The notes below the pieces were generated by a model. The model ran no database searches, was not told where the DNA came from, and worked only from the letters and a program-made list of their open reading frames with translations. Shown piece after piece: positions 22,466 through 26,461 of a stretch of 64,000 nt of DNA. The stretch lies in assembly GCA_017469355.1 (NCBI GenBank), contig JAFUGM010000038.1:1-64000 (forward strand), read 5' to 3'. Origin of the DNA: Solobacterium sp. (lineage in GTDB: Bacteria; Bacillota_I; Bacilli_A; Erysipelotrichales; Erysipelotrichaceae). Each line of letters begins with the position of its first letter. The first letter of the stretch is position 1. A program made the translations under genes and the position numbers.

Positions 22466-23524
22466 ATGAAACGTAAACAACCCGCATATCTTGAATTGTA
22501 TGCCTCCTTGAGAAAAGCGATTATTGATGGGGCCTTCCCGTATGGCACAAAGATCCCTTCCAAGCGATCTCTCAGCGCTGCCTATGATCTTTCTCTTGTG
22601 ACGGTAGAACATGCGATCGAACTGCTGGATGAGGAAGGTTATGTCGAGCCGAGAGAGCGGGAAGGCATCTTTGTCATCTATCGTCCCGATTCAATGATTG
22701 CGGTGCAGGAAGAACCGCCTCTGCCAACCGACATTCACACTTATGTAAGAGAGGATACCTTTCCCTTTACCGTACTTGCCCGTACGATACGCAAGGTGCT
22801 CAGTGACTATCAGGAAGAAATTCTTGTAAAGAGTCCCTCGCAGGGACTCCCTTCCCTCCAGATGGTCATCAGCCACCATTTACGCTCTGCCCGGGGAATG
22901 GAAACAGATCCGGATCAGATTCTGATCGGCAGTGGTGCGGAATACCTGTATGGTCTTTTAGTGACGATTCTTGGGCGGGATAAGATCTATGGGATTGAAG
23001 AGCCTTCCTACGAAATGATTCGACGTGTCTATCAGGCAAGCGGCGCTTCCATTGAACCGCTCCGTCTTGGGAAAAACGGCATTCTATCGGAGGAACTCTC
23101 ACGCACAAGAGCCAATGTACTGCATATCACCCCATATCACAGCTGGCCTACTGGCATAACCGCCGATGCGTCTAAGAAGCGGGAGTATATTGCCTGGGCA
23201 AGCGAACATAACGCGATTCTGATCGAAGATGATTATGACAGTGAATTCACCCTCTCTGGCAAACCCGCCGATACACTATATGCGATGGCAGAAGAAGGTC
23301 AGGTCATCTACCTGAATACCTTTTCCCGAACGATCGCGCCTTCGATTCGTATTGGTTATATGATTCTGCCGAAAAAATTACTCCAACAATTTAAAGAACG
23401 TGCAGGATTTTACTCCTGCACGGTTTCAACCATGTCACAGTTAATTCTTTATGAACTTCTTTCCAGCGGGGATTACGAGCGCCACCTTAACCGCATTCGC
23501 CGCAGTCGGAAACAGAAGCGTTAA
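22466..23524 (+). CDS. MocR/PdxR-like GntR regulator, C-terminally truncated and lacking the PLP lysine
   Basis: 352 residues. The N-terminal GntR winged helix (1-70, PSKRSLSAAYDLSLVTVEHAIELL) is intact. The aminotransferase-like domain has SPSQGLPSLQ, EDDYDSEF and TFSRTIAPSIRIGYMILP. In family members the TFSK position is the Lys that binds PLP; here it is Arg288. Family members are about 450-480 residues, but this one ends after LNRIRRSRKQKR, so roughly 100 C-terminal residues are missing. It probably controls the ECF gene or is decaying. Its last four bases overlap the convergent sensor gene. Confidence 0.75.
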   Translation: MKRKQPAYLELYASLRKAIIDGAFPYGTKIPSKRSLSAAYDLSLVTVEHAIELLDEEGYVEPREREGIFVIYRPDSMIAVQEEPPLPTDIHTYVREDTFPFTVLARTIRKVLSDYQEEILVKSPSQGLPSLQMVISHHLRSARGMETDPDQILIGSGAEYLYGLLVTILGRDKIYGIEEPSYEMIRRVYQASGASIEPLRLGKNGILSEELSRTRANVLHITPYHSWPTGITADASKKREYIAWASEHNAILIEDDYDSEFTLSGKPADTLYAMAEEGQVIYLNTFSRTIAPSIRIGYMILPKKLLQQFKERAGFYSCTVSTMSQLILYELLSSGDYERHLNRIRRSRKQKR

Positions 23525-24843
23525 TGTCTTGGAATCCGGATGTCATATACCGTTGTTTCTTCTTCGACCCGGATATGGAAAGAACCGCCATATGTTTCCG
23601 CAAGTGTATCTTTTACATTACGCAATAGAGGATGTTCCGCAAAGATGCGGCTGAGATCCGCTTCCTGCAGTCCATCTTTTGCGCAGAACCGCAGGATGAC
23701 TTCACCCTCTCCTTCTTCCGTTTCAAGCTTCAATGAGCCACCTTCTTCACGTCGTTCGATTAAGGAAGTGATATGTTCCCCAATTGTTAATAAGGTAAGA
23801 CCGGGCAGTGAAAATGAAGTCACCGCAATGGATTCTTCATAGGAAAAGCGTTCCGGGAACCGGAGTTCTTCCATCGCGAAGAAATGACTCAACGTCTCCA
23901 GTTCACTCTGAAACGAGAATAGATGCTCGGCCGTAAATTCCCGATGTTTATTCTGAAGGTAGGCAGATAAATGAAGGAGCGTCCGCTTGGCGTTTTTCGG
24001 CTGATGGTCAATCTGCCCACTCGCAAGATTCAATATATCCGAAACCAGAGCCGGGTTTTCCCGCAGTAATTCATATACTTCCTCTGGCCGCTCTTCATGA
24101 ATAATTCGTACGCTTCCTTCCTCCTCAGGTGTTTCGGTTTCCGTAACTGCCGGGATTACTACTGGTGCAGCAGAAGGAGCTGCAGAAACACTTGAAAGAA
24201 GATAGCAGTTCAGAGAAAGAATCATCGTAATGGTAAACATAAAACCAATCCACTCCATCCCTGAAGTCAGCGCATAACATAACTCTGCCGCAAAGATTCC
24301 AACCAGAAGATCATACATACGTTCTGGTGATGTGTTTCGTAACTCGATATGGAAGTCTTTGAACCAGTAAAGATCTGCTCCAACAGCCCCCACTAGCGTC
24401 ACAACCCCGGCTTCAATCCACAGGATCAGTTTGAGTGCAGCATCTTTCGTTCCAGCAATCTTAACGATATTCGTTACTGCAGAAAGCACCACAAACACTG
24501 CCAGTCCATTGACGCCGATATAGGCCCATTCCTTTTCCGAACAGGTAAAGGCATTACGCACTCCATGGCGGATCCCAGCCGCCAGTGCAATGAGAATGAC
24601 GACGGTATTGATAACATAAATGATCTGAATCAGATGCCGGTAAGGCAGCACATCACTTCGTCCCAGTGCAGTCACTTCAAGAAGCTGATAAACGATATTT
24701 ACCATGAACCAGAAAAAAAACAGAATGTTGTTTCGCCGCAGCACCTTCTTCAAAATTCCCATGACAAGGCATACCAGCAACGAAATGACAATCGCCAGTA
24801 TACACATGGAACGTTCCAACGGATACAGTGCAATACCTTCCAT
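23521..24843 (-). CDS. LytS/YehU-like membrane sensor, degenerate kinase
   Basis: 440 residues. About seven transmembrane helices fill the N-terminal half. The C-terminal part resembles a LytS-type kinase (LHLSAYLQ, then SELETLSHFFAMEELRFPERF like ELEHxxxYLxIExxRF). The phospho-acceptor motif NPHFLFN is replaced by NPALVSD, the N-box ENAIKHG by EHITSLI, and no G-box is clear, so kinase activity is unlikely. No LytTR regulator is adjacent. Perhaps a signal receptor without catalysis. Confidence 0.65.
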   Translation of the reverse strand: MEGIALYPLERSMCILAIVISLLVCLVMGILKKVLRRNNILFFFWFMVNIVYQLLEVTALGRSDVLPYRHLIQIIYVINTVVILIALAAGIRHGVRNAFTCSEKEWAYIGVNGLAVFVVLSAVTNIVKIAGTKDAALKLILWIEAGVVTLVGAVGADLYWFKDFHIELRNTSPERMYDLLVGIFAAELCYALTSGMEWIGFMFTITMILSLNCYLLSSVSAAPSAAPVVIPAVTETETPEEEGSVRIIHEERPEEVYELLRENPALVSDILNLASGQIDHQPKNAKRTLLHLSAYLQNKHREFTAEHLFSFQSELETLSHFFAMEELRFPERFSYEESIAVTSFSLPGLTLLTIGEHITSLIERREEGGSLKLETEEGEGEVILRFCAKDGLQEADLSRIFAEHPLLRNVKDTLAETYGGSFHIRVEEETTVYDIRIPRH

Positions 24844-24973
24844 AGTTTCCTACTCCTGATTCGCTGAAACAATTATATCCTCAAAGAAGCATCCTTACGA
24901 TGAAAATCCGATGAACCCCTCGCAACAACCGCCCTATTATTTGATATACTATCGGATGGAAAAGAGGACACCC

Positions 24974-26461
24974 ATGACAGCGACCGCATTTGATTCCAGG
25001 AAGTATCTAGAACTTCAAAGAGACAAGATTCTTGAACGCATCCAGATGTTTGACGGAAAGCTCTACCTCGAATTCGGGGGAAAGATGTTTGAAGACTTTC
25101 ACGCCGCCCGTGTACTGCCCGGTTATGAACCGAATAATAAAATCCGGCTTCTGACCGAACTTCGTGACAAGGTGGAACTGATCATCTGTATCAATGCCAA
25201 CAACATCGAGCATTCCAAGCTGCGCGGAGATACGGGAATTTCCTATGATCAGGAACTGCTTCGTATCGTCGACGCACTCAAGGCACTGGACCTCTATGTC
25301 GGTTCCGTCGTTATTACCCAATATGCCCATCAGCCTGCTGCGGACCAGTTCCGTCGTCAGCTTAAGGCAGAAGGAATCCGTTCCTATCTGCACTATCCGA
25401 TTCCCGGTTATCCGACCGATGTGGACTTTATCGTAAGCCCTGATGGACTCGGAAAGAATGATCATATCAAGACCTCAAGGCAGCTGATCGTCGTAACAGC
25501 TCCAGGCCCTGGTTCAGGAAAAATGGCTACCTGCATTTCCCAGCTGTACAATGACTCCCGCAAGGGAATCAAATCCGGTTATGCGAAGTTTGAAACTTTC
25601 CCAGTGTGGAATCTGCCGTTAAACCATCCCGTCAATCTGGCCTATGAAGCCGCAACTGCAGACCTCAATGATGTGAATATGATTGACCCCTTCCATCTGG
25701 ATGCCTATGGCGTTACCGCCATCAACTATAACCGGGACGTGGAAATCTTCCCGGTGCTCAACCGTCTCTTTGAAGCAATTCAGAATGAAAGCCCCTATAA
25801 GTCTCCGACCGATATGGGTGTGAATATGGTCGGTTACTGCATTTCCGATGATGAAGCTGCCAAGGAAGCATCCAAGCAGGAAATTCTCCGCCGTTATTAC
25901 AAGACCGTCGTCGAGGCATGGCGGGAAGAACTGCCTGAGGATGCGGTAGATAAGATCAAGGTTCTGATGAACAAGGCGGATGTTTCGCCAGAAGATCGTA
26001 CCTGTGTCTCCATAGCCCGTCAGAAAGCAGAGGAAACTGGCGCTCCTGCCATGGCGATTGAACTTCCGGATGGCCGTATCGTCACCGGAAAGACATCCAG
26101 TCTCTTCGGCCCAAGTTCTGCCGCTATTATCAATGCGATCAAGGCACTTGCGGGTATTGCGAAAAACCGCAACCTCATTGAACCGGCATATGTCAAACCG
26201 ATTCAGGATCTCAAAGTAAAGAACCTCGGCAATCACAATCCCCGTCTTCATACGGATGAACTGCTCATCGCCTTAAGTATCGTCGCTAAAAACAACGAAC
26301 TGACCGCCTCTGCGGTAAAACAGCTTTCCAACCTGAAAGGATCAGAAGCGCACAGCACTGTCATTCTTCCAGCGGAAGACGCAAATATGTATCGAAAGCT
26401 CGGAATTAACGTAACATTCGATCCGGTTTACCAGCAGAAGAAACTTTATCATCGTAAGTAA
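24974..26461 (+). CDS. DUF1846 family protein
   Basis: 495 residues from [15 protein letters not shown], with GAGGA upstream; 21 extra open codons before it are rejected. Matches the well-conserved DUF1846 family: [47 protein letters not shown] (P-loop-like) and [17 protein letters not shown]. Cytosolic; ATP- or metal-dependent activity has been suggested for the family but its role is not firmly known. Confidence 0.93.

Follow-up and report, generated by a model that had tools for sequence, protein, structure and literature searches.

A stretch of 64,000 nucleotides from Solobacterium sp. (GenBank assembly GCA_017469355.1, contig JAFUGM010000038.1, positions 1 to 64,000 of the forward strand), here called the window, carries on its minus strand the gene pk1 (23521..24843), which begins with ATG, encodes 440 amino acids and is supported by its open reading frame, by a match to the His_kinase family PF06580 and by seven orthologs. 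Judged by the loss of its motifs, Pk1 is a pseudo-histidine kinase, that is, a protein in which at least one catalytic function has been lost. In the predicted model residues 8-220 (24184..24822, minus) form seven long helices, which we take to be probably transmembrane, and this is the best conserved half of the protein, residues 1-212 being 46-48% identical to three orthologs. Alignments place a degenerate H-box, NPALVSD, at residues 263-269 (24037..24057, minus), with Ala265 instead of the phospho-acceptor His, and a degenerate N-box, TIGEHITSLI, at residues 353-362 (23758..23787, minus), with His357 instead of Asn; the pseudo-catalytic domain (residues 344-440; 23524..23814, minus) is predicted to have an ATPase fold and is devoid of glycine boxes. 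Upstream of the start codon are an AGGAG that resembles a ribosome-binding site (24853..24857, minus) and a TATAAT hexamer (24872..24877, minus), and in all seven copies of pk1 a TATAAT, 22 to 30 bases distant from the start, is combined with a purine-rich ribosome site, a recurrence given here with no estimate of chance. A two-hexamer scan detected no promoter at pk1, the score lying below the shuffle mean.

Loss of the catalytic boxes and predicted retention of the fold

Up to E = 1, PF06580 was the sole Pfam family detected in the window copy of Pk1, at 25.1 bits over residues 263-333, marginally under the cut-off of 25.2, and in the genome search the same match reached 28.6 bits, above the cut-off. 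No HATPase family of Pfam matched this copy up to E = 1, NCBIfam returned a Maf match alone (E 0.08) and a sequence search of the PDB gave no match. HATPase_c was detected in all 21 intact LytS kinases searched, in one of seven Pk1 proteins (E 0.037) and in none of the six members of a second degenerate LytS family from the same genus.

For comparison, 25 intact kinases were chosen from the loci for carrying an H-box, large YesM-type kinases, the locus L011 and the broken L009 being excluded. Twenty-one of them made up a genus profile (A4), and all 25 were aligned with six full Pk1 orthologs and the six proteins of the second degenerate family, giving an alignment of 37 proteins from which the ortholog of genome G010, cut by a contig end, was left out. 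The first-pass annotation of this DNA had described a LytS-like sensor in which NPHFLFN had become NPALVSD and the N-box EHITSLI, and had proposed an alignment of hidden Markov models as the check, since intact boxes might have been mis-registered. The likeness to LytS holds at the level of PF06580, and the profile comparison bore out both replacements: hhalign matched the window copy to the profile of 21 intact LytS kinases with probability 100 and E 2.1e-41, aligning NPALVSD with the H-box, of QPHFIYN type, and IGEHITSLI with VENAIKHG. The boxes are therefore not mis-registered, an explanation that the 37-protein alignment rules out as well. In that alignment the columns that hold His, Asn and Asn in 25/25 intact kinases correspond to Ala265 and Asp269 of the H-box and His357 of the N-box in the window copy, the DxGxG and later GT box are missing, and of the 28 positions at which 92% or more of the intact kinases agree, 12 are retained. 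In terms of membership, Pk1 thus has the PF06580 homology, the part order and the predicted catalytic-domain fold of LytS-type kinases, and lacks the H-box His, the N-box Asn and glycine boxes, and the adjacent response regulator expected of a catalytic one.

Five residues (K299, H307, T353, H357 and P405) are fixed in 6/6 Pk1 proteins, occur at these positions in 0/25 intact kinases and are all kept in the window copy. Two of them, His307 and His357, might be taken as a sign that Pk1 is still catalytic through other residues, a reading that we consider hardly credible because the glycine boxes are absent and no nucleotide site can be recognised.

The structure of Pk1 was predicted from an alignment of seven sequences, with a mean predicted local distance difference test (pLDDT) of 63. 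The model has seven long helices, a linker, DHp-like helices (of low confidence) and a C-terminal alpha-beta domain, with pLDDT values of 58-81 across residues 351-440. Predicted residues 344-440 superpose on the catalytic domain of ThkA (3a0t; Z 10.7, root-mean-square deviation 2.0 over 94 residues), which agrees with the earlier view that the overall order of the fold is kept, and the structure of DivL (4q20; Z 10.3, root-mean-square deviation 2.3 over 95 residues) is among the structural matches of the same domain. With the whole model, Foldseek gave no match at E 0.001 or better, the best being DesK at 1.4e-3. The helical half resembles seven-helix rhodopsins (Z 10-11.5); as helical bundles may share such Z values through a common arrangement, nothing is concluded from this likeness.

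Distribution, gene neighbourhood and order of loss

Orthologs of pk1 were found in 7 of 70 genomes of the genus, a lineage-restricted distribution within a set of gut bacteria. Six of them are in the named collection, all from Solobacterium or uncultured Solobacterium records, and the record titles name an animal source in five (roe deer, dairy cattle, reindeer and, twice, sheep). Downstream, pk1 is convergent with a gene for a MocR/PdxR-type regulator (22466..23524, plus), which overlaps its 3' end by 4 bases in the window, and on the other side lies a divergent gene for a DUF1846 protein (24974..26461, plus), the marker for a species tree that covers 60 of the 70 genomes, the other 10 having no match. 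The convergent MocR gene is found in 6/6 copies whose contig extends that far, with a PfkB gene beyond it (the G010 contig stops inside pk1), and the DUF1846 gene is adjacent in six; the G028 contig ends first and its DUF1846 match is on another contig.

This arrangement could be read to mean that Pk1 is a membrane receptor for the pathway of its neighbours, comprising MocR/PdxR, the PfkB kinase and in some genomes an energy-coupling factor (ECF) S-component, perhaps for vitamin B6 salvage, and the constant presence of MocR and the convergent overlap in the window would agree with it. We regard this as very improbable, as MocR and DUF1846 are adjacent without pk1 in G032 and a radical SAM gene takes the place of pk1 in G093, so that the gene order is independent of pk1; furthermore, pk1 is on the opposite strand with start signals of its own, and in G001, G007 and G068 the interval between PfkB and MocR lacks the ECF gene that the window and G028 have. 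Synteny was accordingly rejected as proof of a link to MocR, and both neighbours are treated as context, no partnership with MocR being claimed. With its 352 amino acids the MocR/PdxR-type regulator covers positions 1-361 of the PdxR model, which is 448 positions long. The seven relatives examined have 351-361 amino acids as well, so this group seems to lack the last stretch of the aminotransferase-like domain. An insertion of pk1 that would have truncated the MocR gene is ruled out, as homologues of 351 and 361 amino acids stand without pk1 in G032 and G093.

Since the DUF1846 tree nests G032 and G093 within the clade of pk1 genomes, pk1 has probably been lost in both. The Asn of the N-box is replaced by His in all six orthologs with a C-terminus, and the ATP-site motifs are absent from all six. 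The phospho-acceptor His is kept in four of seven orthologs (G001, G007, G068 and G028) and lost in the window copy, G022 and G010; its persistence in proteins with no ATP site indicates a stepwise loss, and as G022 and G010 group with G028 in the DUF1846 tree and the window genome elsewhere, there were at least two losses of the His. Pk1 forms one clade in the kinase tree (support 100/97), and within that clade the window copy groups with G001, G007 and G068 (97/89), unlike in the DUF1846 tree, where the window genome is basal (98/92).

Selection and evolutionary rates

Ratios of nonsynonymous to synonymous substitution rates (dN/dS) were calculated according to Nei and Gojobori for two close ortholog pairs, G068-G007 and G022-G010, neither of which includes the window copy; in the remaining whole-gene pairs dS was at least 1.5 or saturated, and no close relative of the window copy was found among the genomes compared. 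For pk1 the values were 0.10 (G068-G007) and 0.08 (G022-G010, a pair without the His, 342 codons), and the active LytS paralog gave 0.08 and 0.12 in the same genome pairs. In the DHp part of the His-less pair dN/dS was 0.015, with 1 nonsynonymous against 13 synonymous differences. Judged by these substitution patterns, pk1 is preserved by selection in both pairs, and dN/dS together with the intact frames rules out that the family as such consists of pseudogenes. The first-pass annotation had argued from a conserved open frame of 440 codons for a non-catalytic role; the frame recurs in seven orthologs with no internal stop, one being cut by a contig end, and such a role gains support from the loss of the ATP site in all six testable orthologs, the retained predicted fold and purifying selection on two ortholog pairs about as intense as on active paralogs.

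Within Pk1 the window copy stands out in the kinase tree by a branch (1.96) far longer than any other, and on a fixed tree its branch lengths were 0.75 for the membrane half, 1.26 for the DHp part and 1.18 for the pseudo-catalytic part. With G028 as outgroup, the window DHp part had 22-23 unique changes versus 6-7 in three relatives (p 0.002-0.008), the pseudo-catalytic part 12-14 versus 6-7, which was not significant, and the membrane half showed no acceleration (24 versus 22, 22 versus 21 and 24 versus 21). Because the DUF1846 and kinase trees give different branching orders, tests with outside outgroups are preferred over those with G028 or G093. With four intact-kinase outgroups the window DHp part differed from that of G028 with p 0.002-0.007, from G007 with p 0.03-0.10 and from G001 with p 0.09-0.20. 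For the DHp part of G022 against that of G028 the signal was weak, with p 0.04-0.15 for the same four outgroups and 0.11 and 0.75 for the two outgroups labelled in2.

A second degenerate LytS family

In the PF06580 search of the 70 genomes, six (G014, G062, G078, G079, G084 and G085) had just a weak and a strong match in tandem. In each of them a degenerate LytS gene is located directly before an intact LytS kinase gene: the weak member lacks the His, the N-box Asn and the glycine boxes in 6/6 cases, and the strong member is intact in 6/6. For the weak member dN/dS was 0.27 in the pair G062-G084, with 0.41 in its pseudo-catalytic part, a value not different from 1, and 0.18 in the pair G085-G079 (dS 1.8). 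In the kinase tree this family forms one clade (100/100), which is placed as sister to Pk1 with a support of 92/92, below the line of the tool and with long branches. The two families are those encountered in the searches made here.

The tandem of degenerate and intact seven-helix LytS genes lies behind hydrogenase genes at six loci in six genomes (L117-L121 and L044; for example L118:3903-6468). In G085 the genes ahead of the pair encode a group A6 [FeFe]-hydrogenase and a NuoF-like protein; inspection by eye showed a 585-587-amino-acid gene of the same look at that position in four others and the end of one in G014. This suggests a hydrogen- or redox-linked three-part system in the genomes of the second family.

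A co-occurring response regulator and active kinases

The first-pass annotation had seen no response regulator near pk1, and indeed the sole receiver match elsewhere on the contig (3973-4302) is 19 kb off, beside a kinase match (2226-2558). The window genome (G000) has 19 receiver matches in total. No LytTR domain was detected in it at E 0.001, and a LytTR regulator was therefore rejected as partner of Pk1. On contig C20 (G000:C20:24206-25003) a protein of 266 amino acids combines a receiver (30.7 bits) with a winged-helix-like C-terminus (Trans_reg_C 21.3 bits, below the cut-off). This C20 regulator is an orphan with no kinase beside it, situated between a gene that we take to be polC-like and a rimP-like gene, so labelled after a family match of the G007 copy below the cut-off of that model. 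A receiver near a contig end (C75:467-796) likewise has no close kinase match.

Matches to the C20 regulator of at least 216 bits occurred in 13 of 70 genomes, namely every pk1 genome except G010 (six), the six that carry the second family, and G093. A pseudokinase of either family thus coincides with a C20-type regulator in 12 genomes (Fisher 1.6e-11, a value that ignores ancestry); as these genomes fall into two clades in the DUF1846 tree, they amount to two evolutionary instances and not to twelve. A regulator tree of 23 matches, partial ones and those without a locus being excluded, shows the copies of each clade as monophyletic (98/99 and 100/99). The branch of the window-genome regulator is 1.21, compared with at most 0.36 for the others in its clade, and with a second-clade outgroup its receiver had 30 versus 14 and 31 versus 13 unique changes (p 0.023 and 0.0096) and its DNA-binding part 18 versus 11 and 14 versus 10, which was not significant. 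Its frame is intact, and the acidic pair and the Asp, Ser/Thr and Lys positions of the receiver are kept. In the second-clade regulators (L139-L144) the acidic pair is DN rather than DD in 6/6, and judged by this motif they are possibly partial pseudo-receivers.

An intact seven-helix kinase adjoins the regulator in G007, G068 and G093. In G028 and G022 a related kinase is located away from the regulator, and G010 has that kinase and no regulator match. Neither G000 nor G001 has a kinase beside the regulator, and no seven-helix LytS kinase matched elsewhere in these two genomes apart from the C38 kinase of G000. No kinase was present in the regulator flanks examined in the second clade (up to 1.5 kb, less at contig ends), the regulator being away from the degenerate-intact tandem in all six genomes.

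Proposed working of the system

We tentatively favour the reading that Pk1 is a pseudo-histidine kinase acting as a non-catalytic partner in a three-part system with the C20 regulator and an active LytS kinase. The seven-helix domain would read a signal, and the DHp-like region would relay its state by protein contact, neither making nor carrying phosphate. The likeliest partner of Pk1 would be the C20 regulator, joined by the active seven-helix LytS kinase where a relative possesses one. Where a relative keeps the His, the active kinase would phosphorylate the pseudokinase in trans, as has been proposed for FasC. In the window lineage, where the His has been lost and the search for a matching active kinase was negative, a sensor-regulator pair that works by contact alone might be left, and by analogy with DivL and its regulator such a role is the most likely one there.

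Several observations weigh against this proposal. In the window genome pk1 and the C20 regulator are on different contigs, and their physical interaction is a candidate drawn from co-occurrence and rates. The 216-bit line was drawn after the gap to the 188 bits of the next genome had been seen, G093 has the regulator and kinase without a pseudokinase, G010 (a genome 69% complete) has the pseudokinase without a regulator match, and the sisterhood of the regulators of the two clades is unsupported (38/3). G022 and G010 lost the His despite a related active kinase and G001 kept it though no such kinase was found, so that loss of the His and loss of the kinase are not tightly coupled. The rate signal in the window DHp part depends on the outgroup, disappearing with the two in2 outgroups, and with outside outgroups there was none in the pseudo-catalytic part (p 0.24-1). 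In the window regulator, receiver and DNA-binding part do not differ in rate (Fisher p 0.62 and 0.42, one second-clade outgroup), and with inside outgroups both are fast; as its receiver residues are kept, it could still be phosphorylated.

The main rival to a contact-only role in the window lineage is relaxed decay, according to which the orthologs work but the window lineage has lost the kinase, and pseudokinase and regulator drift towards loss. With this would agree the branch of the window copy in the kinase tree (1.96, the longest of the Pk1 rows), a regulator that is fast in all its parts, a DHp part that is fast in some tests, the window genome, in which no matching active kinase turned up, and G032, which is nested in the clade and shows neither pseudokinase nor C20-type regulator. 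Decay nevertheless appears somewhat unlikely to us, because the 440-codon frame is intact and its TATAAT and ribosome site are kept, the window copy retains the five family-specific residues, the membrane half is not accelerated, and the frame and active-site residues of the regulator are intact. Rather unlikely, in turn, is a pathway devoid of any phosphotransfer, in which a sensor with neither His nor ATP site and its regulator stayed and changed together after loss of the kinase, control being exerted by binding; the relatives would then preserve intermediate steps, namely a pseudokinase with His beside an active kinase, loss of the His and loss of the kinase.

Pk1 might also heterodimerise with another active kinase, for example the C38 LytS kinase or one of YesM type, and tune it in the manner of RetS or the ChrS pseudokinase, the C20 regulator being incidental. 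The window genome does have three intact PF06580 kinases, and heterodimer precedents have been described (PMC9491836; PMC12675982). This explanation is quite doubtful: all three kinases are accompanied by a receiver protein on their contig (at distances of about 1 kb at most, 3.4 kb and 6.5 kb), and G001 has, besides Pk1, large PF06580 kinases alone (frames of 612-617 amino acids).

Relation to known pseudokinases

Pseudo-histidine kinases are recognised as a class of which few members have been worked out. FasC, whose kinase class is AgrC-like, and DivL both belong to kinase classes other than that of Pk1. In the FasBCA system FasC is described as a multi-helix sensor with a DHp and a dispensable kinase domain that keeps its His; its authors propose that it is a pseudokinase and heterodimerises with the active kinase FasB, feeding the single regulator FasA (PMC12675982). 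Three of the seven pk1 genomes (G007, G068 and G028) resemble this in having the His, a seven-helix active kinase and the regulator; the difference is that the fas genes are co-transcribed and that window Pk1 lacks the His, while no active kinase of its kind turned up in the genome. DivL, in which Tyr replaces His, binds ATP weakly and acts by binding a response regulator (PMC4211667). It resembles Pk1 as a pseudokinase and through the match of its structure 4q20 to the predicted C-terminal domain; it differs as a PAS-domain sensor of alphaproteobacteria (PMC4211667) and has no seven-helix domain. The ChrS pseudokinase of Corynebacterium glutamicum is reported as a kinase-dead sensor and forms heterodimers together with an active kinase that is its paralog (PMC9491836), as Pk1 would in the heterodimer explanation; it arose from a laboratory-evolved frameshift in one strain, whereas Pk1 belongs to an evolved gene family. 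A survey reports that the His is missing in 0.9% of HisKA and 0.3% of HisKA_3 domains, section 6 of the survey giving no figure for the LytS class (PMC12632262).

Among the papers searched, none on a LytS-class pseudokinase or pseudo-histidine kinase was found. New beyond the earlier observation are the second degenerate LytS family and the co-occurring orphan regulator. One genus thus yields two LytS pseudokinase families with intermediates, in which the ATP site is always lost and the His and the active kinase vary, which makes testable both the order of losses in the evolution of non-catalytic sensors and the possibility that a sensor-regulator pair outlives its chemistry.

Two further arrangements were observed among the kinase and receiver genes of the genus. 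On contig C38 of the window genome (L041, 1472-10030) an intact LytS-type kinase is accompanied by a SpoIIE-type phosphatase, an RsbW-like ATPase-domain protein and a receiver-winged-helix regulator, possibly a meeting of two-component and partner-switching signalling. At three other loci (L022:125-724, L023:222-812 and L123:3938-4534) the gene for a helix-turn-helix (HTH)-like protein of 196-199 amino acids immediately precedes that for an intact LytS kinase. In its second half the HTH-like protein matches the C20 receiver, giving an inverted HTH-receiver layout.

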